Shown here: positions 5,708 to 56,205 of the stretch, in pieces | How the letters are laid out: every line of letters begins with the position of its first letter | How positions within the stretch are numbered: the first letter of the stretch is position 1 | Translations under genes and position numbers: made by a program | Assembly (NCBI GenBank): GCA_927405585.1 | Contig: CAKMJS010000016.1 | Location: 1 to 59,030, forward strand | Source: an uncultured Desulfosporosinus sp. | GTDB taxonomy: Bacteria > Bacillota > Desulfitobacteriia > Desulfitobacteriales > Desulfitobacteriaceae | Direction of reading: 5' to 3' | DNA length: 59,030 nucleotides | The notes under the pieces: generated by a model | Told to the model about the DNA's origin: nothing | The model's database searches: none | What the model saw: only the letters and a program-made list of their open reading frames with translations

Positions 5708-7015
5708 ATGGAACGAATCATCAAGAAAATGTCGCCGACAAAGCCGATGCTGCCAAAGAAAAAGCGTGTGGCCGCCTACGCCAGAGTATCCACCAGCAAA
5801 GATGCCATGCTCCATTCGCTCTCTGCTCAGGTCAGCTATTACAGCGACTATATCCAGAAGCGTCGAGACTGGCAATATGTTGGCGTTTATGCCGATGAAG
5901 CATCGACCGGAACAAGCGATGACCGAGAACAATTCCAAAAACTTCTTGAGGATTGCCGTGTAGGACTCATCGATATGGTTATTACAAAATCCATATCGCG
6001 ATTTGCTCGAAACACTGTGACCTTGCTTGAAGTGGTACGAGAATTGAAAGAGATCAAGGTTGATGTGTTCTTTGAAAAGGAGAATATTAATACTCTCAGC
6101 GGGGATGGCGAGTTGATGCTCACCATCCTCGCTTCTTTTGCACAGGAGGAAAGCCGTTCGGTCAGTGAAAACTGCAAATGGCGGATACGAAAGCAATTTG
6201 AGGATGGAGAGATTGTTAATTGGCGATTTATGTTCGGATATCGCAGCGTGAATGGCAGAATGGAAATAGACCCAAAGGAAGCAGAGATTGTCCGCTCGAT
6301 CTTCCGTGACTACATTAACGGCATAAGCACAGCATCAATTGCCCGCAGGCTTCAAGGTGAAGGCATACCCACAAGGTTCGGAGGCCAATGGTCAGTCAGA
6401 CGTATCATCGATATGATTCGGAATGAGAAATACGCAGGAAACGCCCTCTTGCAAAAGAAATATGTATTGGACCACCTGACTAAACTCCTTAAGTTGAATC
6501 GTGGTCAGCTCCCCATGTATTACGTCGAAGGTACCCATGAAGCCATAATTAATGAGAAGATCTTTCGCCAGGCGCAAGTGATCTATGAACAGAACAAGGA
6601 AAAAGCTGCTACCAAACGTCCGACAACTCAACGCTACCCGTTTTCGAGCGTAATTAGTTGTCCGCACTGTGGCAAGAATTACAAACGCAAGATTACTCAC
6701 GACAGGGTGTCGTGGAACTGTGCGACCTTTCTTAAAGAGGGAAAAGCAGTATGTCACACAAAGCAAATCCCGGAAGAAACCTTGTTCGAAATAACCACCG
6801 AAGTCTTAGGACTTTTGCAGTTTGATGAGACGGTTTTCAAAAAGATCATACGAGAAATCATAATTCCGGAGTTTAACACTCTGGTTTTTGTTTTTAATGA
6901 CGGACACCACATCAAGCGCGTTTGGCAAGATCGCCCACGTAACGAAAGGTGGACCGAAGAGTTAAGACAGAAAGCACGGGAACGGGAAATTAAAAGAAGG
7001 AGGAAAAGCAAATGA
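5708..7015 (+). CDS. Large serine recombinase (site-specific integrase)
   Basis: A 435-residue member of the large serine recombinase family. The resolvase domain opens with VAAYARVST (catalytic Ser) and includes ITKSISRFARNT. The recombinase domain spans about 160-260. A zinc ribbon CPHCGKNYKRK with later Cys residues follows, then a basic tail. The start has GAAAGGAGG 6-7 nt upstream and the stop overlaps the next recombinase by 4 nt. Paired recombinases like these integrate and excise ICEs. This one looks intact. Confidence 0.9.
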   Translation: MERIIKKMSPTKPMLPKKKRVAAYARVSTSKDAMLHSLSAQVSYYSDYIQKRRDWQYVGVYADEASTGTSDDREQFQKLLEDCRVGLIDMVITKSISRFARNTVTLLEVVRELKEIKVDVFFEKENINTLSGDGELMLTILASFAQEESRSVSENCKWRIRKQFEDGEIVNWRFMFGYRSVNGRMEIDPKEAEIVRSIFRDYINGISTASIARRLQGEGIPTRFGGQWSVRRIIDMIRNEKYAGNALLQKKYVLDHLTKLLKLNRGQLPMYYVEGTHEAIINEKIFRQAQVIYEQNKEKAATKRPTTQRYPFSSVISCPHCGKNYKRKITHDRVSWNCATFLKEGKAVCHTKQIPEETLFEITTEVLGLLQFDETVFKKIIREIIIPEFNTLVFVFNDGHHIKRVWQDRPRNERWTEELRQKAREREIKRRRKSK

Positions 7016-7773
7016 GAGCAGCAAGAGCAGTTACTATTATTCCAGCAACAACCACACAATTTTCCCCACTTCGGCTGGGGGTGGCCGCCAAGAAACGAGT
7101 GGCTGCTTATGCCCGAGTTTCGACGGATACCGAAGAACAGCATTCAAGTTATGAAGCCCAAGTTGATTATTACACACGCAATATTCAAGAAAATGAAAAC
7201 TGGGAGTATATTGATGTTTATACGGATGAGGGCATTTCGGCCACCAACACCAAACGGCGAGGCGGCTTTAACCGGATGATTGCCGATGCTTTAAACGGCA
7301 AACTCGATATGATTATCACCAAGTCGGTTTCACGGTTTGCTCGTAATACAGTCGATACGCTAACAAACGTCCGGCTGCTTAAGGAAAAAGGCGTAGAGGT
7401 CTACTTTGAAAAAGAAAACATCTATACTATGGACAGCAAGGGCGAACTGCTGATTACCATCATGTCGAGCCTTGCGCAGGAGGAAAGCCGAAGCATCTCT
7501 GAAAATGTTACTTGGGGTCAAAGAAAGCGTTTTGCAGACGGGAAGGTCAGCCTGCCATATGGACAGTTCCTTGGTTACGAGAAGGGGAAGGATGGCTTGC
7601 CAAAGATTGTGGAATCGGAAGCCGTAACCATTCGGGTGATTTATCGGCTATTCCTTGAAGGAAAGACCCCTTCAGGTATTGCAAACCACCTCACTCAAAG
7701 CGAAGTGCCAACACCATCCGGCAAACTAAAATGGCCCGTTAGCACGGTAGAGAGTATTCTCACTAATGCGTGA
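7012..7773 (+). pseudogene. Second large serine recombinase, 3' truncated
   Basis: The catalytic domain is intact (VAAYARVSTDTEEQ, ITKSVSRFARNT) and so is the start of the recombinase domain (TPSGKLKWPVSTVESILTN). After ILTN the expected EKY-type continuation is replaced by one alanine and a stop. The zinc ribbon and coiled-coil part, roughly half of a full protein, are missing. The break marks a DNA junction, possibly the insertion point of the ICE that follows. The remaining 253 aa could fold as a catalytic domain but would lack DNA-binding parts. Confidence 0.8.
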
Positions 7774-9702: not shown

Positions 9703-9899
9703 CAAGAAATGTCTTGACTTGTGCGAAGTGTGGAGGCAATGACTTTAAGGTATCCTACGGCACCGACTGCTCCCACGACAAAAAAGGAAATGAAAATTGG
9801 GAGCTGGCGCTGGTCTGCAACCACTGCGGCTACTTGACAACCATAGCCCGCACCAAGGGATACATAGCGAAAATCGAGCCTGTTAACGCAAGGAGGTGA
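9699..9899 (+). CDS. Small zinc-ribbon protein
   Basis: A 66-residue product whose ATG overlaps the ParB stop. The pairs CAKCGG and CNHCGY form a classic two-CxxC zinc ribbon. Function unknown. It lies between the partition genes and the giant polyprotein gene, probably in one operon. Confidence 0.65.
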   Translation: MTRNVLTCAKCGGNDFKVSYGTDCSHDKKGNENWELALVCNHCGYLTTIARTKGYIAKIEPVNARR

Positions 9900-9903
9900 A
9901 ATT

Positions 9904-12900
9904 TTGAGAAAGGATGAAAGACTGAGGACGGTCTATGAAACTATAGCGCCCCACATTACCCGAACCGAGGGCGCATGGCGGGATTATCTCGGTTTTGCGG
10001 CACGGTTTTATAAATACAGCTTTGACAACGCCCTGCTGGTGTACGCGCAAAATCCAAACGTCACCATGCTTGCCACCACACCGATATGGAACAAATTCGG
10101 CAGATACATCGATAAAGGCGCGACAGGACTGGCGGTCTGTGAGTATGACAATGCCAGGTTGACCATCAAGCACCTGTTCGATATCTCTCAGACGAACGGC
10201 CGGGAGATCATTCCGACAAACTGGCAGCTTGATGATAAGATAAAAACAGAGCTGACCAGCCGCCTTTCCTATGCTCACAATCTTACATCCTCCGGTTTTA
10301 CCGAGTGCCTGAACCAATTAGCGGAAGAATCGGTTGCCGAGCGCCTGGACGATTATCTGCAAGATTTTGACTTTGATATTGAAGGCCACCTGTTTTCACA
10401 ATTACCCCAGGACGGACTACTCAGTCAAATCCAGGAGATTGTCAAAGACAGCGTAACCTATTTTATCTGCAAGCGATGCAGCCTTGCGGACGATGAAATC
10501 CATACCGGCGACGGGATGATGACCATTGCCCATTTCGACAGCATTCCGCTGATCGCAAGGCTCGGACACACCGTAACCGACATCTCCAAAGGTATACTTT
10601 GGGAAATGGAACGGACAATCAGAATCATTGAACGGGAAAGGAGGATGACGCATGAGCAAAATCGAGATGATCTACACAGAGAAGGATGGAGTGCTGCTCC
10701 CGAACCTTCAAATCTCCAACAACAGCGAGGACGACAACCAGCCCCTGGGCAAGTATGGCAGAATGGCGATGGAGTACCTGCACGAAAACCATCCGCAGCG
10801 GTTTATGATTTTGAAAATGGATGGCACACTGATGGAGAAAATGCATCGGGTCCACAGGGAAGCGGTGGAGAAAATCGAGTACATCACCCAGCAGATGCTG
10901 GAGGCCGAACCGATGCCGGTAACGGAGGACATCATGGAGAAGACCCGCCACCTGAACAGCCTGCGGTCGGCAGCGGAGGAAATCGTGCTGAACGAGATCA
11001 TATTCAAGGTGAGGTAAGCCCGCCGCCCCCAAACAGTCAAAATGCAGAGCCACCCGAAAGCGAACAGGAGTCGCCGCCGGACAGCTCTTTTTTTGTGCAA
11101 AAAACACAGAGCTTGCAAGAGCGATGGGCCGACAGGCTAACGGAAAATGTGCTCCCCATCCCCATTGAGGAAGGAGTACCCACACCGAAAAAAGTGGCGG
11201 TTGTTAGAGAGTGGCTGCAAAAAAACAGCGATATCTATTTCCCTGTCTATGCCGTGATGTATCATGCCACAGGCTCAAAGCTTCCGATTTTGGAGGAAGG
11301 TCTGCTGCCCACCAGCGAAGCAAGGCGGCGGTCCTATCAAAGTACAAGCGGGTATGTTTACCTTGCCAATACCCCTGAACGGGCAAAAAACTTTGGCGAT
11401 CTTGGAAATATGTCGGATTCGACGGTTTATGAGGTTATCATCCCCATCCACAAGCTGCTGGCAGACATCGACCAATTGAACAATCAGAGAGCCACGGGTA
11501 AAAAAGTGGGTAACAGTGTCGCCGAGAGCATCGTATATGGCGGCGGAGCAAGAGTAAAGGGCACTATCGCGCTGTGGCAGATTAAAGCCTTTGACTATGA
11601 GGCATACAGCAATTCCAAGGATGAGGCAACGAAGCAGGCCGAGCTAAAAGCTTCCTATATAAATATAGAATATACGGACGAACAGGTACGGGAATATTAC
11701 GAAGGCATTTTAAAAAGCACCGATCTTTATCCTCTTGAAATGTATGAAAAAATTCAGGCGCTTTTCGCAACCGACATGCCTCTTGAAGACAAGGCGGTCG
11801 CTCTATCCAAAATTTACGAGGACTACGGCAATGCGGAATATCAGGCGGACGTGCTGCTAAAAACCACTCACCGGGGCGCAGACGGGATGTCGTTTTCCTT
11901 CGGGGACGGCTATACACACATACCTTGGCATACCATCGCCAACATCATAAGAATGCTCATTGACGAAGGCGAATATCCGGTGTCTATTTCGGAGGAAAGC
12001 CTCGCGGACCGAATCGGCGACTTTAATATCCCCGATGAGATTGATGAAATGCGCATCGTAGACGGGGAAGTTTCTCCCATTGCCCATGAAAAAGAGGAAT
12101 CGAGCGAGCAGGAGCTGTATGCCTGTGTGGACAGCTATCTTTGCAATATGCAAATCGTATATAAAGGCTGGCATGGTGAAATAGCGGCGGAGCTTGCCAA
12201 TGACAATGAAATAGATAAATATCTGATGACCGACTATTTCCGGGACCTGGATGAACGCGAAACGCGGATTGACGATCACGTTGTCACCTGTGCTGTAGAG
12301 GATAACGGCGTTGAATTCCTGATTGACCACTATGTTGTCGGGCTGTCCTGGACGGAGCTGGCTGAAAGGATAAAAATCCTGGTCGAAACCGACGCTTTCC
12401 CCGTGACTCAGACCTTAGAAACAAAAAAAGAAGAACAGCAGCCATTTATCAATGTCCTGGTGGTAGAACTGGAGATAGAGCCCTATCTCACCGCCATCCC
12501 AAGAGGAAACAATGCCTTACAGGAAAAAGTCGGCGGTCTGATTACCACCATTGAAATCGGGGACGGCATAGATGCCGTCTGCGCCGATGATGCCGACTTT
12601 GAAACCACGCCTATCAACCGCATGATCGACGGCCAGCCCATCTTCGGCACCTTTGTTGTGGCACGGGTGGACTACAACACAGGAAAATATGAATCTCTGC
12701 AAGACACCGATATCAAAAAGTACATGGCTGAATTCGCCACTCCGCTTGTGGACATTACCAGACTGGCTGCGGAGTATGAGGAAATGGAAGCGGCACAGGA
12801 AGACGCCGAGCCGGATATTGAAGCGACGGGCTTTTATCCCCCGCAGCCCGCGAAAAAGCAACCAGGCTATGAGGAAGACCCTAGTATCCGCGGCAGTACT

Positions 12901-15900
12901 GACTTTACACAAATTGAGGATATATCTAGGTCTGACGAAATAGAACCCCTTGTACCTAAGCCTGTTGCCAATCAGCAAATAAACCTGTTCGATATGGAAG
13001 CTATCCCGAAGGATAAAGAAGCAGAGCTTATTGAATATGTGCTGCTGGAGGGCAGCCGAGTCGCCGGAGGCAAACAGCGTATCTATAAATTTGCTATGAC
13101 CCAACCCACCGGCTCTGACTTTGAAAAAATGTTAAAGAACGAATACGGCATTGGCGGCCATACCGTCGGCAAGCATGGCATCGGTTTTGAAAACCATGAC
13201 AGCAAGGGAATCGTATTTGACTGGACCGATGATAAAGGAGAAAAGCACGAAACCAAAATAACATGGATTCGGGCAGCTATTGGCATTCAAAGGCTCATTG
13301 ATCAGGGACGGTATATCGGAAAACCCGCACCCGCTCGTACATTTGAGACTGTACCCTCGGCAGAAACCGAGCCCGTTGCAAAGCTTATTCCAAAACCCCG
13401 CCCTGTTAAAACCAATTTCCGTTATTCCGAGGACTATGCCCTCTATCCAAACGGTGTGAAAACCAAGTACAAAAACAATGTGGAAGCAATCAAGCTACTA
13501 AACAAAATCGAAAGCGAAAAACGGCTTGCCACAACCGATGAACAGATTGTCCTGGCCCGGTATGTGGGCTGGGGCGGCCTTGCCAATGCCTTTTCCGATA
13601 CGGCCAGCGGCTGGGAGAAGGAATACCACGAATTGAAGCACCTGCTGGATGAAAAGGAATACGCAGATGCCTTAAATTCGGTTGTCACCGCCTACTATAC
13701 AGAACCGGAGCTAATCAGGCGTATCTACAATGCCTTTGAAAACTTTGGCTTTACAGGCGGAGAGGGTAGGAAAATACTTGACCCCGCGATGGGAACGGGA
13801 AACTTTTTTTCCGTGCTTCCCGAAAGCTATGAGGGAACGCCCCTGTATGGCGTGGAATTGGACAGCATCACAGGCAGGATCGCAAGGCAGCTTTATCAAA
13901 CGGCGAATATCCAGGTACAGGGCTTTGAAACCACTCGTTTTGAGGACAACTCCTTTGACATTGCCATCGGGAACATCCCCTTTAACAACATCAAGCTCTA
14001 TGATAAGCGATATGATAACGAGGATTTTCTGATCCATGATTATTTTATTGCCAAATCCCTTGACCTTGTAAAGCCCGGCGGCATCATCGGCTTTATCACA
14101 AGTAAAGGCACGATGGATAAAAAAGATACCAGTGTCCGTGAATACATTGCCCGCAGAGCCGACCTGATCGGCGCCATCCGGCTACCGAACACAGTGTTTA
14201 AGGCTCTTGCCGGGACGGAGGCTACGGCGGACATCCTGTTCTTTCAAAAGCTGGAGTCTCAGCGTACCGTAGATAAATATTTCCTGCCCGATTGGGTGTT
14301 CGTCAATTCCAGAAAGCCCGATTACATGAATATGAACCAATATTTCATCGACCATACGGAGATGGTATTGGGTGAAATGCAGTTTAGCAGGAATATGTAT
14401 GGGCGTGAGGATGGTACGGCCTGTATTGCTCCCGAAGGGCAGGACCTTTACGCGGAGCTTGACATAGCCATAGGAAATCTGCACGCCACCTTTAACGCCG
14501 AAGCAGACCAGCCCTTTGAGGAAATTGAGGAGGCCGAAGATGGAAACACTGGTGAGCTGGACGCACCCGAAGGGACGAAAAATTATACCTATGTGGTGCA
14601 GGACGATCGGATTTACTACTGCGAGCGTAACAAGCTGATACCGCAGGACTACACCGGCAAACGCGCCGAGCGCATCAAAGGACTGTGCGAAGTCAGGACG
14701 GCACTGCTGGAAGTCATCCGAATTCAGACCCATGATTACGCGCCTGACGAATTGAAGCAGGCGCAGAAAACCTTGAACGGGGTGTATGACCGCTTTGTAA
14801 GACAGTGCGGGGCCATCAATGACAAGGCCAACATCGCCGTATTCTCCGATGACGACCAGTTCCCTCTGCTTCGTTCCATTGAGGATCAGAGCAAGGATAA
14901 AAAATCATGGAACAAGGCCCCCATTTTCCATAAGGCCACCATCAAATCCTATCGCCGTCCCACCCATGCCGAAACAGCCAAGGAAGCCCTTGAAATATCG
15001 TTGAACCAAAAAATGAAGGTTGATTTGCCGTATATGGAAAAGTTGACCGGCAAATCGGCAGATGAACTTATCAATGAGCTTGGGGATCGCACCTATCTCA
15101 ATCCGCAGAAATACTACGGCAATTATTATGAAGGCTGGGAACTGAATGAGGAATATCTGAGCGGACAGGTGTGGGATAAGCTGCTCTATGCCAAACAGAA
15201 GGCCGAAGAATATCCCGAACTGTTTGAGAGAAATGTGCAGGCCCTTGAAGCGGTGCAGCCCAAATGGCTGGAACCCTCCGAGATTGACTTCCGCATCGGA
15301 AGTCCCTGGATACCCATTGAATATTTCCAGCATTTCATGCACGAGACCTTTGGCACTACGGATTATCTAAGGGACTCAATTACGGTTGACTATATGGAAT
15401 ACACCACCACCTGGCGCATCAACGGAAAGACAAGGGAGCCCACCTCCGTCAAGGTCAACAACACCTACGGCACAAAACGGGTCAATGCTTATCAGATTTT
15501 CGAGGATTGCCTCAATCTCCAACCCACCACGGTGCGCGATCCGGTCCCCTATGTGGACAATAACGGTAAAAGCCAGGTGCGGTACGTGGTCAATGCCAAT
15601 GAGACCATGATTGCACGGGCAAAGCAGACTCAAATCAAGGAAGCCTTTGCCTCATGGCTGTTTAAGGATACGGACAGAGCTGATATCCTGCTTAAAATAT
15701 ACAATGAGAAATTCAATACCATTCGCCCCCGTGTCTATGACGGCAACCACCTTATCTTTCCCGGCATGAGCGAGGAAATGGAGCTAAGACCCCATCAAAA
15801 GAACTTTGCGGCACGGGTTATCTATTCCGGTACGGGACTGGCCGGTCATGTTGTGGGTGCGGGGAAAACGGCGGCGATGATTGCGGCGAGCATGTATCTC

Positions 15901-18270
15901 AAAAATATTGACGCCATCAAGAAACCCGTCTATGTGGTGCCCAACCACCTGACTGAGCAGTGGGCAAAGGAGTTTTACCGGTTCTTCCCGCAGGCCAACA
16001 TCCTTGTTACCACCAAAAAAGATTTTGAAGCGAAGAACCGGAACAAGTTTGTTTCCAAAATCGCTATGGGTGAGTATGATGCGGTGATCATCGGCCATTC
16101 CCAGTTTGAAAAAATACCTATTTCCAAAGAACGGCAGGAAGCGCAGATCAATAACGAGATCAACCAGCTTTCCTATATCATCAAAAAGATAAAAGAAGAA
16201 AAGGGAGAAAATTGGGCGATCAAGCAAATGGTCATCTTTCAGAACAACCTTAAAGCCCGCCTCGACAGGCTGGCGGCAGAGGGAAAGAAGGATGACCTTT
16301 TGAATTTTGAGCAGCTTGGCGTGGATTATATGTTTGTGGACGAGGCCCATGCCTATAAGAACTGCTTTACCTACACTAAAATGCGCAATGTGGCAGGCAT
16401 TGGCCGGTCTGCAAGCCAGCGGGCGACGGATATGCTTTTGAAATGCCAGTATTTGCAGGAAATGGGCAGTGGTAAAGGCGTAGTATTCGCTACCGGCACA
16501 CCTATCTCCAACAGCATGAGTGAAATGTTCGTCCTGCAGCGGTATTTGCAGCCGCAGATGCTGGCAAGATTGGGACTCAACTATTTCGATTCCTGGGCGG
16601 CAACCTTTGGTGAAGTGATATCGTCTCTGGAAATCACGCCGGAAGGCTCCGGCTACCGTATGCGGAATCGCTTCGCGAAATTCCACAACCTGCCGGAGTT
16701 GATGAACATCTTTCAGCTTGTGGCGGATATCCAGACCGCCGATATGTTGAACCTGCCTGTTCCCGAAATCAAGGACGGCAAGGCCACCATTATTGCCACC
16801 GAAGCTACACCCTTCCAGAAGATGATTATGGAAAGCTTTGTGGAGCGTGCGGAGAAAATCCGCAACCGTGAAGTTGAGCCAGATGAAGATAACATGCTCA
16901 AACTCACCGGTGAAGCGAAACTGATGTCCATTGATCCCCGCCTGGTCTACGAAGATGCACCTAATGACCCGGACAGCAAATTGAATATAGCCATTGGAAA
17001 CGTCTTTGATATCTGGCAGGAAAGCTCTGAGCAAAGACTGACACAGCTTGTGTTCTGCGACAGCGGTACGCCAAAGCCCGGACAGTTTAACGTCTACGAT
17101 GAAATGAAAAGGTGTTTGACGGAAAAAGGTGTTCCGACCGATGAAATCGCCTTTGTCCATGACGCTAAAACCGACGAGCAAAGAGAAAACCTATTTGAAA
17201 AGGTGCGCATGGGTGAAATCCGAATCCTGCTGGGCAGCACAAGCAAGCTTGGCACCGGAACCAACGTACAGGACAAACTGGTTGCGGTCCATCACCTGGA
17301 CTGCCCGTGGCGCCCATCGGATATCGAGCAGCGCGACGGCAGGATACTTCGCCAGGGCAATCAAAACCCTGTTGTCAAAATCCTGCGGTATGTCACGAAG
17401 GGTACGTTTGATGCTTATCTCTGGCAGATTCAGGAGCAAAAATTGAAGTACATCTCACAGGTGATGACGGGCAAGAGCATTTCCCGCTCCTGTGAGGATA
17501 TGGATGAAACGGTGCTTTCCGCTGCCGAGGTCAAGGCGATTGCGACCTCCAATCCTCTGCTGGCAGAAAAAATGGAAGTGGACAACGAGCTTATACGGCT
17601 GAAGCTGTTAAAAGGCAACTGGAACAATGAACGTCTGACCCTGGAACGAAATATTAAGGATCAATACCCCGATACCATTGCCTATTGTGAAAAGAAGATT
17701 GCGAGCATCCGTAAAGACATGGAATTGCGGGAGAAAACCGAGGGGAAAGACTTTTCGGCAGTGATTGATGGCAAAACCTATGATGAGCGTGTCAAGGCTG
17801 GAGAGCAGCTCCTGCTGATGATGAAGCTCCATGACATTGCGATAAACGGCGAACCTTTGCCTGTCGGTGAATACAGGAGCTTCCGTCTCTTTCTTGTCCT
17901 GAATGCCTTTAAACAACTGGAACTGTTGGTAAAAGGCGACAACACCTACAGCACACCCCTTGGCGATTCATCCCTTTGCGGTATCACAAGGCTTGAAAAC
18001 GTGGTTGAAAAGATACCGGTGGTGCTGATGAATATGGAGCAAAAGCTGGCGGATACCCAAACTCAGCTTGAAGAAGCCAGGAAGGAAGTCCAAAAGCCCT
18101 TTGAGTATGAACAGCGCCTGAACGAGTATTCGGCGCGGCAGGCGGAGATCAATACCAGGCTGGAGTTTAAGGAGTTTCAAAAACAAGAGGAAGTCATATT
18201 TGAAGAAAAAACCGCGGCTGAGACAGAGAAGGCTTGTAATAAAGAAGCCTGGGAGGCGGAATATGCTTAA
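9904..18270 (+). CDS. Giant polyvalent protein: adenine methylase plus SNF2-type helicase
   Basis: 2788 residues from a TTG with GGAGGTG upstream. Residues 1-240 are an ArdC-like ssDNA-binding type region. Residues ~250-371 are a Pro/Gly/Asp-rich linker that also encodes tnpV in another frame. At ~440-560 a domain with YHATGSK (H454-A-T456) and GYVYLANTPERAKNFGD resembles ADP-ribosyl/phosphotransferase folds (inference). A DUF3846-like block lies near 860-970 and an LPD-type block near 1045-1140. N6-adenine methylase motifs are DPAMGTGNFF (1293) and NIPF (1357). Helicase motifs are VGAGKT (1984-1989), VDEAH (2145-2149) and GRILRQG (2479-2485). Such 'phage-like barrier protection' proteins are thought to shield incoming ICE DNA from host restriction. 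It is intact. Confidence 0.85.
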   Translation: MRKDERLRTVYETIAPHITRTEGAWRDYLGFAARFYKYSFDNALLVYAQNPNVTMLATTPIWNKFGRYIDKGATGLAVCEYDNARLTIKHLFDISQTNGREIIPTNWQLDDKIKTELTSRLSYAHNLTSSGFTECLNQLAEESVAERLDDYLQDFDFDIEGHLFSQLPQDGLLSQIQEIVKDSVTYFICKRCSLADDEIHTGDGMMTIAHFDSIPLIARLGHTVTDISKGILWEMERTIRIIERERRMTHEQNRDDLHREGWSAAPEPSNLQQQRGRQPAPGQVWQNGDGVPARKPSAAVYDFENGWHTDGENASGPQGSGGENRVHHPADAGGRTDAGNGGHHGEDPPPEQPAVGSGGNRAERDHIQGEVSPPPPNSQNAEPPESEQESPPDSSFFVQKTQSLQERWADRLTENVLPIPIEEGVPTPKKVAVVREWLQKNSDIYFPVYAVMYHATGSKLPILEEGLLPTSEARRRSYQSTSGYVYLANTPERAKNFGDLGNMSDSTVYEVIIPIHKLLADIDQLNNQRATGKKVGNSVAESIVYGGGARVKGTIALWQIKAFDYEAYSNSKDEATKQAELKASYINIEYTDEQVREYYEGILKSTDLYPLEMYEKIQALFATDMPLEDKAVALSKIYEDYGNAEYQADVLLKTTHRGADGMSFSFGDGYTHIPWHTIANIIRMLIDEGEYPVSISEESLADRIGDFNIPDEIDEMRIVDGEVSPIAHEKEESSEQELYACVDSYLCNMQIVYKGWHGEIAAELANDNEIDKYLMTDYFRDLDERETRIDDHVVTCAVEDNGVEFLIDHYVVGLSWTELAERIKILVETDAFPVTQTLETKKEEQQPFINVLVVELEIEPYLTAIPRGNNALQEKVGGLITTIEIGDGIDAVCADDADFETTPINRMIDGQPIFGTFVVARVDYNTGKYESLQDTDIKKYMAEFATPLVDITRLAAEYEEMEAAQEDAEPDIEATGFYPPQPAKKQPGYEEDPSIRGSTDFTQIEDISRSDEIEPLVPKPVANQQINLFDMEAIPKDKEAELIEYVLLEGSRVAGGKQRIYKFAMTQPTGSDFEKMLKNEYGIGGHTVGKHGIGFENHDSKGIVFDWTDDKGEKHETKITWIRAAIGIQRLIDQGRYIGKPAPARTFETVPSAETEPVAKLIPKPRPVKTNFRYSEDYALYPNGVKTKYKNNVEAIKLLNKIESEKRLATTDEQIVLARYVGWGGLANAFSDTASGWEKEYHELKHLLDEKEYADALNSVVTAYYTEPELIRRIYNAFENFGFTGGEGRKILDPAMGTGNFFSVLPESYEGTPLYGVELDSITGRIARQLYQTANIQVQGFETTRFEDNSFDIAIGNIPFNNIKLYDKRYDNEDFLIHDYFIAKSLDLVKPGGIIGFITSKGTMDKKDTSVREYIARRADLIGAIRLPNTVFKALAGTEATADILFFQKLESQRTVDKYFLPDWVFVNSRKPDYMNMNQYFIDHTEMVLGEMQFSRNMYGREDGTACIAPEGQDLYAELDIAIGNLHATFNAEADQPFEEIEEAEDGNTGELDAPEGTKNYTYVVQDDRIYYCERNKLIPQDYTGKRAERIKGLCEVRTALLEVIRIQTHDYAPDELKQAQKTLNGVYDRFVRQCGAINDKANIAVFSDDDQFPLLRSIEDQSKDKKSWNKAPIFHKATIKSYRRPTHAETAKEALEISLNQKMKVDLPYMEKLTGKSADELINELGDRTYLNPQKYYGNYYEGWELNEEYLSGQVWDKLLYAKQKAEEYPELFERNVQALEAVQPKWLEPSEIDFRIGSPWIPIEYFQHFMHETFGTTDYLRDSITVDYMEYTTTWRINGKTREPTSVKVNNTYGTKRVNAYQIFEDCLNLQPTTVRDPVPYVDNNGKSQVRYVVNANETMIARAKQTQIKEAFASWLFKDTDRADILLKIYNEKFNTIRPRVYDGNHLIFPGMSEEMELRPHQKNFAARVIYSGTGLAGHVVGAGKTAAMIAASMYLKNIDAIKKPVYVVPNHLTEQWAKEFYRFFPQANILVTTKKDFEAKNRNKFVSKIAMGEYDAVIIGHSQFEKIPISKERQEAQINNEINQLSYIIKKIKEEKGENWAIKQMVIFQNNLKARLDRLAAEGKKDDLLNFEQLGVDYMFVDEAHAYKNCFTYTKMRNVAGIGRSASQRATDMLLKCQYLQEMGSGKGVVFATGTPISNSMSEMFVLQRYLQPQMLARLGLNYFDSWAATFGEVISSLEITPEGSGYRMRNRFAKFHNLPELMNIFQLVADIQTADMLNLPVPEIKDGKATIIATEATPFQKMIMESFVERAEKIRNREVEPDEDNMLKLTGEAKLMSIDPRLVYEDAPNDPDSKLNIAIGNVFDIWQESSEQRLTQLVFCDSGTPKPGQFNVYDEMKRCLTEKGVPTDEIAFVHDAKTDEQRENLFEKVRMGEIRILLGSTSKLGTGTNVQDKLVAVHHLDCPWRPSDIEQRDGRILRQGNQNPVVKILRYVTKGTFDAYLWQIQEQKLKYISQVMTGKSISRSCEDMDETVLSAAEVKAIATSNPLLAEKMEVDNELIRLKLLKGNWNNERLTLERNIKDQYPDTIAYCEKKIASIRKDMELREKTEGKDFSAVIDGKTYDERVKAGEQLLLMMKLHDIAINGEPLPVGEYRSFRLFLVLNAFKQLELLVKGDNTYSTPLGDSSLCGITRLENVVEKIPVVLMNMEQKLADTQTQLEEARKEVQKPFEYEQRLNEYSARQAEINTRLEFKEFQKQEEVIFEEKTAAETEKACNKEAWEAEYA
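10652..11017 (+). CDS. tnpV: TnpV-like protein nested inside the giant gene
   Basis: 121 residues in a different frame from the enclosing gene. AAAGGAGG lies 7 nt before the ATG, an excellent ribosome site. The sequence (PLGKYGRMAMEYLHENHP, MEKMHRVHREAVEKIEYI, HLNSLRSAAEEIVLNEII) matches my memory of transposon-encoded TnpV proteins: a 'GKYG' start, a long helix and a C-terminal 'N.IR..A.EIV...LIY' helix. The enclosing frame reads through as a low-complexity linker, so both products appear to be made. TnpV is regarded as an accessory of excision; function unproven. Confidence 0.75.
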   Translation: MSKIEMIYTEKDGVLLPNLQISNNSEDDNQPLGKYGRMAMEYLHENHPQRFMILKMDGTLMEKMHRVHREAVEKIEYITQQMLEAEPMPVTEDIMEKTRHLNSLRSAAEEIVLNEIIFKVR

Positions 18271-52834: not shown

Positions 52835-53686
52835 ATGAATGCACAAAAAGAGAGAAACTGTTTGAGGATCGCGTTCTATGGAAAAGGCGGAATCGGAAAA
52901 TCGACAGTGGCTGCCAATATTTCTGCAGCATTGGCAATGCAAGGACTTAAGATATTGCATATCGGGTGCGATCCTAAGGCGGATTCCGCAAGATGCCTCG
53001 TAGGGCGCAAAATCCCTACGGTCTTGCAACAATTGCATACCAAGCAGGATGGCATTTCCCTGCAGGATATTGTATTTCTCGGTTTTAGCGGGGTTAACTG
53101 CATTGAAGCGGGAGGCCCCGAAGCCGGCATTGGTTGTGCGGGTAGGGGAATTATCACCATGATGGAGGAATTGAAATATCTGGAACTATGGGATGAAGTC
53201 TGGGACGCCGTTGTTTATGATGTCCTCGGTGATGTCGTGTGCGGTGGCTTTTCGGTTCCGATGCGTGAAGGGTATGCAGATACAATTTATATTGTAACAT
53301 CATCAGAATTTATGTCGATCTATGCTGCCAACAATATCATGAAGGCGATCAGCAGAAGCCAGGGGACAAGGCCAGTGACACTGGGGGGATTAATTCACAA
53401 CTGCAGAAATGGCGAGTCGAGTAGGGCGGCAGTTGAGCAGTTCGCCATTTTGACGGGTACTCGGGTAGTGGCTGATGTCCCTTTCAGCCGGGAAATTGCC
53501 CTTTCGGAACTCGAAGGCAAAACAGTTCTAGAAAAGTTCCCAGATTCACAGGCAGCTTGTTTCTTTAAGGATTTGGCGGGTGTTATCACTGAGAATCAGG
53601 GTTATAGGCGAGTAAAAGCACTTGATGATGATGAACTGGAAAAATTCAGTCACTACATGCTTGATCTGGAATTGCGAAAAGCATAG
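52835..53686 (+). CDS. NifH/BchL/CfbC-like iron protein (nitrogenase-like reductase)
   Basis: 283 residues. P-loop GKGGIGKST (16-24), GCDPKADS (44-51). The two cysteines that hold the bridging [4Fe-4S] cluster in the dimer are C101 (GIGCAGRG) and C136 (DVVCGGFSVP). R104 matches the site ADP-ribosylated in NifH. So it is an ATP-driven electron donor, shared design with nitrogenase, chlorophyllide/protochlorophyllide and F430-precursor reductases. Weak family features in the C-terminus. First gene after the two B12 riboswitches. Confidence 0.9.
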   Translation: MNAQKERNCLRIAFYGKGGIGKSTVAANISAALAMQGLKILHIGCDPKADSARCLVGRKIPTVLQQLHTKQDGISLQDIVFLGFSGVNCIEAGGPEAGIGCAGRGIITMMEELKYLELWDEVWDAVVYDVLGDVVCGGFSVPMREGYADTIYIVTSSEFMSIYAANNIMKAISRSQGTRPVTLGGLIHNCRNGESSRAAVEQFAILTGTRVVADVPFSREIALSELEGKTVLEKFPDSQAACFFKDLAGVITENQGYRRVKALDDDELEKFSHYMLDLELRKA

Positions 53687-53719
53687 GTAGACGGGTGCTG
53701 GAAATTGGAGGAAATGAAA

Positions 53720-54964
53720 TTGTCTTGCACGGGATATATAAGAACAAGCAGCAGTGAAGAAAAGATCAAACTTGCGGATATCGCGGATAAAATGCCGCTG
53801 GACAGCTTTTTTGATAGGGGTATAGCGGACGATGATTGTGGGGAACTGGTCAATTTGGCCTTATGTGTACCGGGCATTGATGTAGTGGCGGCAGGTCCCT
53901 CATCCTGCTCAAGAGTATTATATTTTAGGGCTGAGAAAAAGGGCTTAAACGAAAATCTATTCCTGCTCCCGGTATCCAGCAACGATTTTGCTACCGGGAA
54001 GCATCTAGAAAAATTGGAAGAGGCGCTAGAAGGTCTTGTGACTTCGCGCCAGCCAAAAGCGATCATCCTTTATCTTACCTGTGCCGATATTCTGACGGGT
54101 ACTGAGTTTGTAAGCATAACAAAACGAATAGAAAGCCGTTATGGGATACCGGTAAAGGTTTTTGAGCGGGGGCCGCTTTCTCGGAGAAGGACACTTCCTA
54201 AAGCTCGGCTAGGTGATATTTTTATCGATTTGATGCAAAGGGGCGTCCTGCAAGAGACGAAAAGCCACATCAATGTGTTGGGAGACTCAGGAAAACTTCC
54301 TAAGGATTTCGGCCTGAGGCAGATACTCATGAATTATTGCTCTAGTGTGGAAATCAGAGAATTTGCCGCGCTGGACTCCTACGGAGAATTTAAGGACCTA
54401 GCAAATGGAAAGTTGAACATCGCCTTGGATCGTTTTGGTTACGATTTGGCGGTGCGTATGCAAGAAAAATGGGACATTCCCTTCCTATACTTGCCTGTTC
54501 GATACAACATGAAAGAGATTAGGAATAACTATGCAGCGCTAATGGAGGGGCTTCAGGTCACTTGGGATTTTAGCCAGGATGCCAAAGAGTACCACAAAGT
54601 TGCTTCTAAAGTAGCTGTGGCATTGGTTGGAAAACGAATTGCAGTGGGGATTGGGCCAAGGTCTTTCGAGCTTGCCTATGTGCTGGAGTTGATCGGCCTT
54701 CCTGTTGCTGCAATATTTGCCGAAACAGTGAACAAGCAAGAAATGACGTATATTCACGCGCTCTCCGCCACGGGAAGCCAGGCGGAGGTTTATTTGGTTT
54801 CAAACGTAAACGTTGAAACACAGACGGGCGGGTTTGAAGGAATAGATATCGCTATTGGAGAAAAAGCATCGTTTTATTGTATAAAAGCAAAAGAAATATT
54901 GGTGAGTGCCGACTATCGTTTCGGATATGAGGGGATCATGGAAATTTTGGAGGGTATGCGATGA
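53720..54964 (+). CDS. Nitrogenase component 1-like subunit, NifD/NifE side
   Basis: 414 residues from a TTG 8 nt after GGAGG; an ATG at 53714 is too close to it and a TTG at 53705 is the longest option. From the chosen start, C40, C63 (in AAGPSSC) and C121 (YLTCAD) match the three NifD cysteines that hold the P-cluster or a [4Fe-4S] cluster. The stretch matching NifD's Cys275 region (LNIALDRFGYDLAVRMQEKW) has Leu there, so no FeMo-cofactor ligand. It is ~60-70 aa shorter than NifD, closer to the tetrapyrrole-reductase-like members. It overlaps the next gene (ATGA). Confidence 0.85.
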   Translation: MSCTGYIRTSSSEEKIKLADIADKMPLDSFFDRGIADDDCGELVNLALCVPGIDVVAAGPSSCSRVLYFRAEKKGLNENLFLLPVSSNDFATGKHLEKLEEALEGLVTSRQPKAIILYLTCADILTGTEFVSITKRIESRYGIPVKVFERGPLSRRRTLPKARLGDIFIDLMQRGVLQETKSHINVLGDSGKLPKDFGLRQILMNYCSSVEIREFAALDSYGEFKDLANGKLNIALDRFGYDLAVRMQEKWDIPFLYLPVRYNMKEIRNNYAALMEGLQVTWDFSQDAKEYHKVASKVAVALVGKRIAVGIGPRSFELAYVLELIGLPVAAIFAETVNKQEMTYIHALSATGSQAEVYLVSNVNVETQTGGFEGIDIAIGEKASFYCIKAKEILVSADYRFGYEGIMEILEGMR

Positions 54965-56205
54965 GAAAATTTTTGACCAGCGTGCCTTCGTTGGCAAGTG
55001 ACTATTCTGGAGCCTGTTCTGTTCTCTTTGCTCTGCCTTCACTTAACCTGCTGTACTCGCCCGGCGGGTGTAGCAGCGCAGTCATTGAATGTGATGAGAT
55101 CAGGGATTTGCGGCAGACCTTGTTCTTCAGTTCCAAGCTGGGGGAGATGGAAGCCGTCATGGGCGCAGAAGACGAATTCCTGTATCATGCGGAAAGGCTC
55201 TGGGCGCAAAATAAGCAGGCTGAATTCATCGCAGTTATAGGTACGCCGGTCCCAGCTTTGACGGGAGTCGATATCGGGGCAATTGCGGATAGGCTGAGCA
55301 GTCGGACAGGCTTGACTGCCTTGGCGCTTCCTACGGAGGGATTTGAGACCTACTACTCTGGCGTTTACTATACGTTGTTAACCTTGGGAAAACGTTTTCT
55401 GGAAAGGAGAGAAAAGAAGAACAATCAAGTAAATATCGTCGGGTATACACCCCTAAGTCTGGGCAAGGAAACACATTTAGCCGAACTCATGGACGAACTG
55501 GAGCAGTTCGGTCTTGAAATCAATGGTTCGCCAGTAGGGAAAATAGACATAGAAACTTTTAAGAAAATGTCCTCTGCTGCTTTGAACCTAGTCGTGTCAC
55601 ATGAGGGCTTAGGGCTTGCCCAATATATGCAAAAAGAATATTCAATACCTTATGTCATGAGTGTGCCAGTAGGTTTATGGGGTATGCAGCGGTTGTTTCA
55701 GGTTCTGGCGGAGATAGTAGATATTCCTATGGACTACACAAACAAGCAACGATACGCCCCAAAGGGCACAGCTCAGCCTGAACAAAGAGCCGTCGTGATA
55801 GGCGAACCTCTATTTGCTTCCTGCATCGCATCTTGCCTGCATAACGACTTTGGGCTTGACTATGTTGAAACAACCAGCTTGATGAAAATGGATAGACGAA
55901 TGAAGAAAGTATATCAGGAAGAGGCGCTTTCCGGTGTTCACTTGTTTGAAGGCGAGGAAGCGTTGGCCCAGTGGATTGATAGAATACAGCCGGATATTAT
56001 TGTCGGCGACCCTCTGTATCAGAGACTTCTAGGCGAAAGCGGTACCCAGTATGTGCCTATCCCGCATGTAGGGTTGAGTGGCCCTATATATGCCAGTGCG
56101 CATTACGAGTTCATCGGAAGTTCTTTTGTGGCTTCCCTCGATTGCTCTGCCAATTTTTTAACTTCTTCAGCTACAACGGCAAACCCACGACCTTGTCAGG
56201 TTTAA
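54961..56205 (+). CDS. Nitrogenase component 1-like subunit, NifK/NifN side, altered C-terminus
   Basis: 414 codons. C19 and C37 (LLYSPGGC) match the first two NifK cluster cysteines; C44 is nearby. The third is absent (AVIGTPVPALTG at the NifK Cys153 position). The family sequence runs to about AHYEFIGS (base 56120). The last ~28 residues are the antisense of a chemotaxis receptor gene, so the true C-terminus has been lost or replaced. Whether the remaining protein works is open. Confidence 0.8.
   Translation: MRKFLTSVPSLASDYSGACSVLFALPSLNLLYSPGGCSSAVIECDEIRDLRQTLFFSSKLGEMEAVMGAEDEFLYHAERLWAQNKQAEFIAVIGTPVPALTGVDIGAIADRLSSRTGLTALALPTEGFETYYSGVYYTLLTLGKRFLERREKKNNQVNIVGYTPLSLGKETHLAELMDELEQFGLEINGSPVGKIDIETFKKMSSAALNLVVSHEGLGLAQYMQKEYSIPYVMSVPVGLWGMQRLFQVLAEIVDIPMDYTNKQRYAPKGTAQPEQRAVVIGEPLFASCIASCLHNDFGLDYVETTSLMKMDRRMKKVYQEEALSGVHLFEGEEALAQWIDRIQPDIIVGDPLYQRLLGESGTQYVPIPHVGLSGPIYASAHYEFIGSSFVASLDCSANFLTSSATTANPRPCQV
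56121..56195 (-). pseudogene. Fragment of a methyl-accepting chemotaxis protein gene
   Basis: Read on the minus strand, the DNA encodes QGRGFAVVAEEVKKLAEQSR and ends in EATKE, the hallmark of the MCP signalling hairpin. Both ends of the gene are missing. It lies inside the 3' end of the NifK-like frame, marking a rearrangement breakpoint. Confidence 0.85.

Follow-up and report, generated by a model that had tools for sequence, protein, structure and literature searches.

The locus described here raises the question of whether one stretch of bacterial DNA can encode two proteins, each of a known family, in two frames of the same strand. The window, a Desulfosporosinus contig stretch of 59,030 nucleotides, contains a tnpV reading frame at 10652-11017 (366 nt including the inner stop codon, 121 aa) lying wholly inside a methylase-helicase gene, the open reading frame at 9904-18270 (2788 aa, TTG start at 9904). 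Both frames are open, and the inner codons are in the +1 frame relative to the outer codons, i.e., offset by one base. The sequence AAAGGAGG at 10637-10644 precedes the inner ATG at 10652 by 7 nt, while the outer gene has its own Shine-Dalgarno sequence, AAGGAGGTGA, at 9890-9899, upstream of the TTG. A sequence-only reading of the window had described the two open frames of 366 nt, the inner TnpV and its Shine-Dalgarno sequence 7 nt before the ATG, all of which was confirmed. The features of the locus are as follows.

9890 to 9899, plus strand: Shine-Dalgarno sequence of the outer gene, AAGGAGGTGA, before the TTG at 9904 (from the sequence)
9904 to 18270, plus strand: outer gene, 2788-aa polyvalent-type protein with N6 DNA methylase and SNF2 helicase domains (open reading frame, Pfam)
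9904 to 10689, plus strand: folded N-terminal domain of the outer protein, aa 1-262, without Pfam match (AlphaFold model)
10637 to 10644, plus strand: internal Shine-Dalgarno sequence AAAGGAGG for tnpV (from the sequence; kept in relatives)
10652 to 11017, plus strand: tnpV, 121 aa, nested, +1 relative to the outer codons (PF14198, E=1.2e-26; substitution phase)
10705 to 11199, plus strand: linker of the outer protein (aa 268-432), predicted to be disordered and for the most part encoded by tnpV DNA (pLDDT; composition selected)
12448 to 12735, plus strand: DUF3846 domain of the outer protein, aa 849-944 (Pfam)
13657 to 14271, plus strand: N6 adenine DNA methylase domain of the outer protein, aa 1252-1456 (Pfam)
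15835 to 16362, plus strand: SNF2 ATPase domain of the outer protein, aa 1978-2153 (Pfam)
17110 to 17358, plus strand: Helicase_C domain of the outer protein, aa 2403-2485 (Pfam)

The inner protein matched the whole Pfam model of TnpV (PF14198), the family of Tn4451 and Tn6104, with residues 8-117 aligned to model positions 2-111 of 111 and a score of 93.3 bits (E=1.2e-26) above the curated cut-off of 27 bits, which makes it a member of the family and the sole TnpV copy in the source genome. The outer polypeptide carries an N6 adenine methylase followed by a SNF2-type helicase and thus belongs to the polyvalent methylase-helicases. It has a DUF3846 domain, and no LPD domain was found in it. 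A Pfam search with its N-terminal domain (aa 1-262) returned no match; this N-terminus may resemble ArdC. The union of an N6 methylase and a SNF2 helicase in one giant conjugative-element protein recalls the DarB-like polyvalent methylase-SWI2/SNF2 dyad, as presented in the available part of Iyer et al. 2017 (PMC5512222), and a relative (L063) carries an LPD25 domain. The difference is that the linker doubles as a gene in our case, and the text of PMC5512222 contains no mention of TnpV.

We propose, with a probability of roughly 0.92, that one DNA stretch gives rise to two proteins, the nested TnpV by internal initiation and the methylase-helicase by reading through the linker. Translation from TTG 9904 would yield the 2788-aa polyvalent methylase-helicase, in which 10651-11019 encodes a disordered linker that is acidic and rich in Gly, whereas ribosomes entering the same mRNA at the internal AAAGGAGG and its ATG would produce the 121-aa TnpV in the other frame. 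Selection would keep the amino acids of TnpV, and its synonymous sites would be used in such a way that the outer frame stays open, acidic and devoid of Cys and of most Lys and aromatic residues. The nested arrangement would be inherited as a unit through much of the methylase-helicase family in Bacillota. The nesting, the constraint in both frames, the conserved internal ribosome binding site and the co-inheritance emerge from the comparison of related sequences given below; translation of both frames, internal initiation and function are what we infer.

A TnpV family search in 73 genomes of the order and 398 of the phylum, together with a scan of named genomes, yielded 118 loci. The broad TnpV alignment was too divergent for the contig scan and a closer one was substituted, giving 65 loci; since nested copies served as the query, these 65 lean towards nested Clostridia copies and the counts are no estimate of the frequency of nesting. 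Eighty of 108 full-length TnpV matches were flagged as sitting in an open reading frame of at least 150 aa in the -1 frame. Dereplication at 95% DNA identity left 82 copies, of which 56 are nested in open reading frames of 700 aa or more; the other 26 include three (L035, L039 and L043) that appear to be nested copies whose outer gene is broken. Among the hosts of nested copies are Syntrophomonas wolfei, Ruminococcus bicirculans, Blautia hansenii, Coprococcus catus, Agathobaculum desmolans and Emergencia timonensis, and nested copies also occur on plasmids of Cohnella herbarum and Monoglobus pectinilyticus. The TnpV of L063 used as a query retrieved 1 plasmid and 2 phage records, that of L104 34 plasmid and 47 phage records.

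The linkage was also examined with queries other than TnpV. The outer N-terminus alone retrieved 22 and 21 places at E<1e-20, 37 of them distinct and one cut by a contig end, and tnpV lay immediately downstream in the +1 frame in 36 of the 36 that could be assessed. Among these, the assessment of G270:C18, G165:C5 and G165:C18 used only coordinates and the open frames reported for them, and G021 has a single TAG within the outer N-terminus. With the methylase domain as query, the 398 genomes contained 25 strong places, one starting at a contig edge; 21 of the remaining 24 have a TnpV over the Pfam cut-off (30.6 bits in G109), two (G106 and G394) a weak TnpV-like open reading frame nested in the same frame, and one (G222) none. 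Purine-rich, Shine-Dalgarno-like sequences stand upstream of the inner ATGs in G109, G106 and G394. The same nesting, in frame and in place, occurs in many Bacillota.

Two of the loci deserve separate mention. In L184 (G394) a 4028-aa protein has the same methylase domain, and its nested, weakly TnpV-like open reading frame (111 aa, minus strand) is in the same frame. On the minus strand of L186 (G344), two TnpV-like open reading frames occur about 660 bases apart without a large enclosing one.

Selection on the inner frame was assessed in 18 close pairs with no member in common, although a few pairs belong to the same clades. Of the substitutions, outer codon positions 1, 2 and 3 received 23/21/56% upstream of tnpV, 52/26/22% over tnpV and 29/19/53% downstream of it. 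Since inner third positions coincide with outer first positions, this switch of phase indicates that the amino acids of TnpV are the main constraint there, and the inner frame is under purifying selection. The phase flips exactly over tnpV. Of the 56 nested copies, 45 have a Shine-Dalgarno sequence of 6 nt or more ahead of the inner ATG, compared with 70 of 3561 other out-of-frame ATGs (2%); at a length of at least 5 nt, the figures are 51 of 56 against 262 of 3561 in the same genes. This count takes the best of several candidate tnpV starts and each background ATG singly, which favours tnpV somewhat.

These data bear on the alternative that only the outer protein is real and that the tnpV-like frame is an untranslated relic of an inserted tnpV. 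TnpV does occur as a separate gene, but a relic accounts neither for substitutions falling at inner third positions exactly over tnpV in the 18 pairs, nor for the retention of the internal Shine-Dalgarno sequence and ATG. Moreover, among outer N-termini scoring above 200 bits and reaching past tnpV, no locus with an intact outer gene and a broken tnpV was found, and we consider the relic explanation very improbable.

Dual coding also predicts constraint on the outer frame. Synonymous permutation of the tnpV of the contig gave a mean of 2.62 outer-frame stops and a chance of 0.022 of having none. Summed over the 56 dereplicated nested copies, 152 outer stops were expected and 0 seen, but this sum is circular because nesting was defined by openness. 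A non-circular test was therefore based on residues outside the definition of nesting, with expectations set by the TnpV amino acids and by codon usage in the rest of the outer gene. In nested copies (seen/expected), the outer frame is depleted in Cys (1/144), Lys (81/264), Tyr (63/240) and Phe (35/88) and enriched in Asp (646/377), Glu (489/286), Gly (931/695) and Gln (454/340), with no shift in Trp (51/49). Twenty divergent representatives have 0 outer Cys against 44.9 expected. In the same frame of the 23 non-nested copies, neither the avoidance of Cys, Lys, Tyr and Phe nor the acidic bias was present: stops were 120/124, Cys 69/81, Lys 126/102, Tyr 85/101, Phe 61/60, Asp 108/109 and Glu 107/116, and some other residues deviated moderately, e.g., Pro (138/177). 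The outer frame is thus under selection over the overlap as far as composition is concerned, and the residue avoidance and acidic bias suggest that its translation continues across tnpV and that selection favours an acidic, disordered linker.

The same composition weighs on the opposite alternative, in which tnpV is the only gene, codon use happens to leave the outer frame open, and the N-terminus and the methylase-helicase portion are either distinct proteins or remnants of a pseudogene. A few non-nested copies (L052, L082, L118 and L103, with one stop each) also have few stops in this frame, and some public records, whose feature tables are incomplete, list TnpV and not the enclosing open reading frame. 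However, chance openness does not explain residue preferences confined to nested copies, full-length outer N-termini joined to tnpV, or continuous outer open reading frames of about 2000-2800 aa in most long loci, so that this reading too has only a very small likelihood. As a separate observation, the tnpV genes of L052, L082 and L118 are free-standing, and their single stop compares with 3-4 expected, a possible trace of past nesting.

The favoured reading, translation of both frames, is also in line with the predicted structure of the outer protein. In the AlphaFold model, aa 1-262 are folded with high pLDDT, and aa 268-432 have pLDDT below 50 except for one residue; the tnpV DNA spans outer aa 250-372. 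The earlier description of a disordered Gly/Asp-rich linker joining folded parts therefore agrees with the model. Residue-level conservation of the linker was also considered and set aside: at 35-45% inner identity, linker identity in pairs was 27.2% against 23.2% expected from the inner frame alone, only slightly above the level forced by the inner frame, so that selection acts on composition and hardly on sequence. The further claim that the linker exists because of tnpV stands in part. Its sequence is mostly dictated by tnpV, but the methylase-helicase homologue G222 (L183), which has no tnpV, nonetheless has a linker, 98 aa long, Ser/Thr/Pro-rich and with the other frames closed. G222 is a possible outgroup.

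The sequence-only reading had considered homologues with stops in one frame as evidence against dual coding. Such stops occur in few homologues, always with an intact tnpV: L033 has one outer-frame stop within the overlap and L035 and L039 have outer stops soon after it, which means that these loci either can do without the outer protein or have let it decay, while L042 has a frame change upstream in the outer gene and L043 is without the outer N-terminus. Its conclusion of real dual coding is otherwise borne out by the inner phase flip, the conserved Shine-Dalgarno sequence and an outer composition selected in nested copies only, and comparison among relatives points to a dual coding that is real and old.

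A different kind of interruption was seen at L057:16365-16800 and L064:7850-8275, where the outer genes are broken at the 11-bp TTTTGCGGACA and the inserted DNA carries its own free-standing tnpV right at the border. In the accessible part of PMC9815147, this 11-bp sequence is reported for mobilizable elements in snf2.

Regarding the age of the arrangement, distances between inner proteins and between outer N-termini were correlated in 20 divergent copies (r=0.80, with 0 of 5000 permutations as high), indicating that the nested pair travelled together. On the TnpV tree, 5 label changes are required to account for the free-standing copies, at least 2 of them forced by well-supported branches, nested copies fall on both sides of the midpoint root, and grouping all free-standing copies in one clade is rejected, though weakly (AU p=0.0245); the tree was built from short sequences with long branches, a midpoint root and a sampling that leans towards nested copies. 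Its pattern is compatible with repeated escape of free-standing TnpV from a nested ancestor. We tentatively suggest, as a possibility that is rather doubtful at present, that TnpV was overprinted in the methylase-helicase linker or present since the family root, and that the TnpVs of Tn4451-like and resistance-bearing mobilizable elements escaped several times. If true, a gene born by overprinting would have become independent and spread widely among mobile elements.

Viruses offer well-known examples of long genes fully nested on the same strand, with selection acting on both frames; to our knowledge, such genes have seldom been shown in bacteria. The tnpV/methylase-helicase pair appears to be a bacterial case of dual coding that is rarely so well conserved. 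The two proteins are members of known families, the pair is found in many Bacillota genera and the non-nested inner copies provide a natural control, which makes it a good system for studying how two proteins can share one sequence and how genes born by overprinting originate or escape. It also illustrates that annotation can miss one of two genes, as two plasmid records list TnpV without the enclosing open reading frame (2077 or 2184 aa; feature table incomplete). The TnpVs of Tn4451 and Tn6104 are treated as separate genes in the accessible published descriptions, whereas in our contig and many relatives tnpV lies wholly inside another gene, and the freely accessible portions of the TnpV literature (PMC3158075, PMC10782964, PMC9815147, PMC11913394, PMC12323340, PMC6435816, PMC5633684) make no mention of its nesting. 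Another mobile-element gene hidden within a gene is ardD in tniA of Tn5053 (PMC3533173, available part), but ardD is antisense, on the opposite strand, while the nesting of tnpV is on the same strand, +1 and conserved across many genera.

Finally, we considered the function of TnpV. Its fold, predicted with high confidence (pLDDT 90.9), comprises two strands and five helices. A sequence search against solved structures gave nothing below E 0.08, Foldseek against PDB and BFVD showed no clear structural relative, and VIA-align reached a best Z of 5.5, with nothing clear; the lambda Xis fold was not among the matches listed in the fold searches. TnpV matched a family of unknown function in PHROGs and reached an E of only 0.0096 in PADLOC. 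The sequence-only reading had tied excision control to expression of the DNA-protection protein, i.e., TnpV would be an excisionase whose level is linked to the outer protein, a functional claim compatible with dual coding. DNA protection is the published view of methylase-SNF2 polyvalent proteins (PMC5512222, available part), a role in excision was postulated for the Tn4451 TnpV on the strength of a remote similarity to lambda Xis (PMC3158075, accessible text), and serine recombinase genes are present at 5708-7773. However, the title of Lyras et al., as cited in PMC3783163, names TnpX as the only transposon protein needed for Tn4451/3 transposition, and the structure searches offered no clear match; the excision link is not supported, and an excisionase role seems unlikely. 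We weakly favour, as the likeliest role, that of a small accessory protein acting early, when the element enters a cell or is maintained there. As the message is common to both, TnpV would be co-expressed with the methylase-helicase, and the existence of free-standing TnpVs indicates that it can work without the outer protein.

The same contig stretch encodes ParA, ParB, a T4SS coupling protein, TrbL and a VirB4/TraG-type ATPase, as well as a relaxase-like protein with a score just below the Pfam cut-off; on the basis of this gene set, the surrounding DNA is most likely an integrated conjugative element. The two serine recombinase genes overlap by 4 bases, and the second, which matches just half of the Recombinase domain, may be truncated. 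Close to the contig end, a nitrogenase-like operon at 52835-56205 encodes a NifH-like protein (PF00142, E=2.3e-87) followed by two nitrogenase component 1-type oxidoreductases (PF00148).
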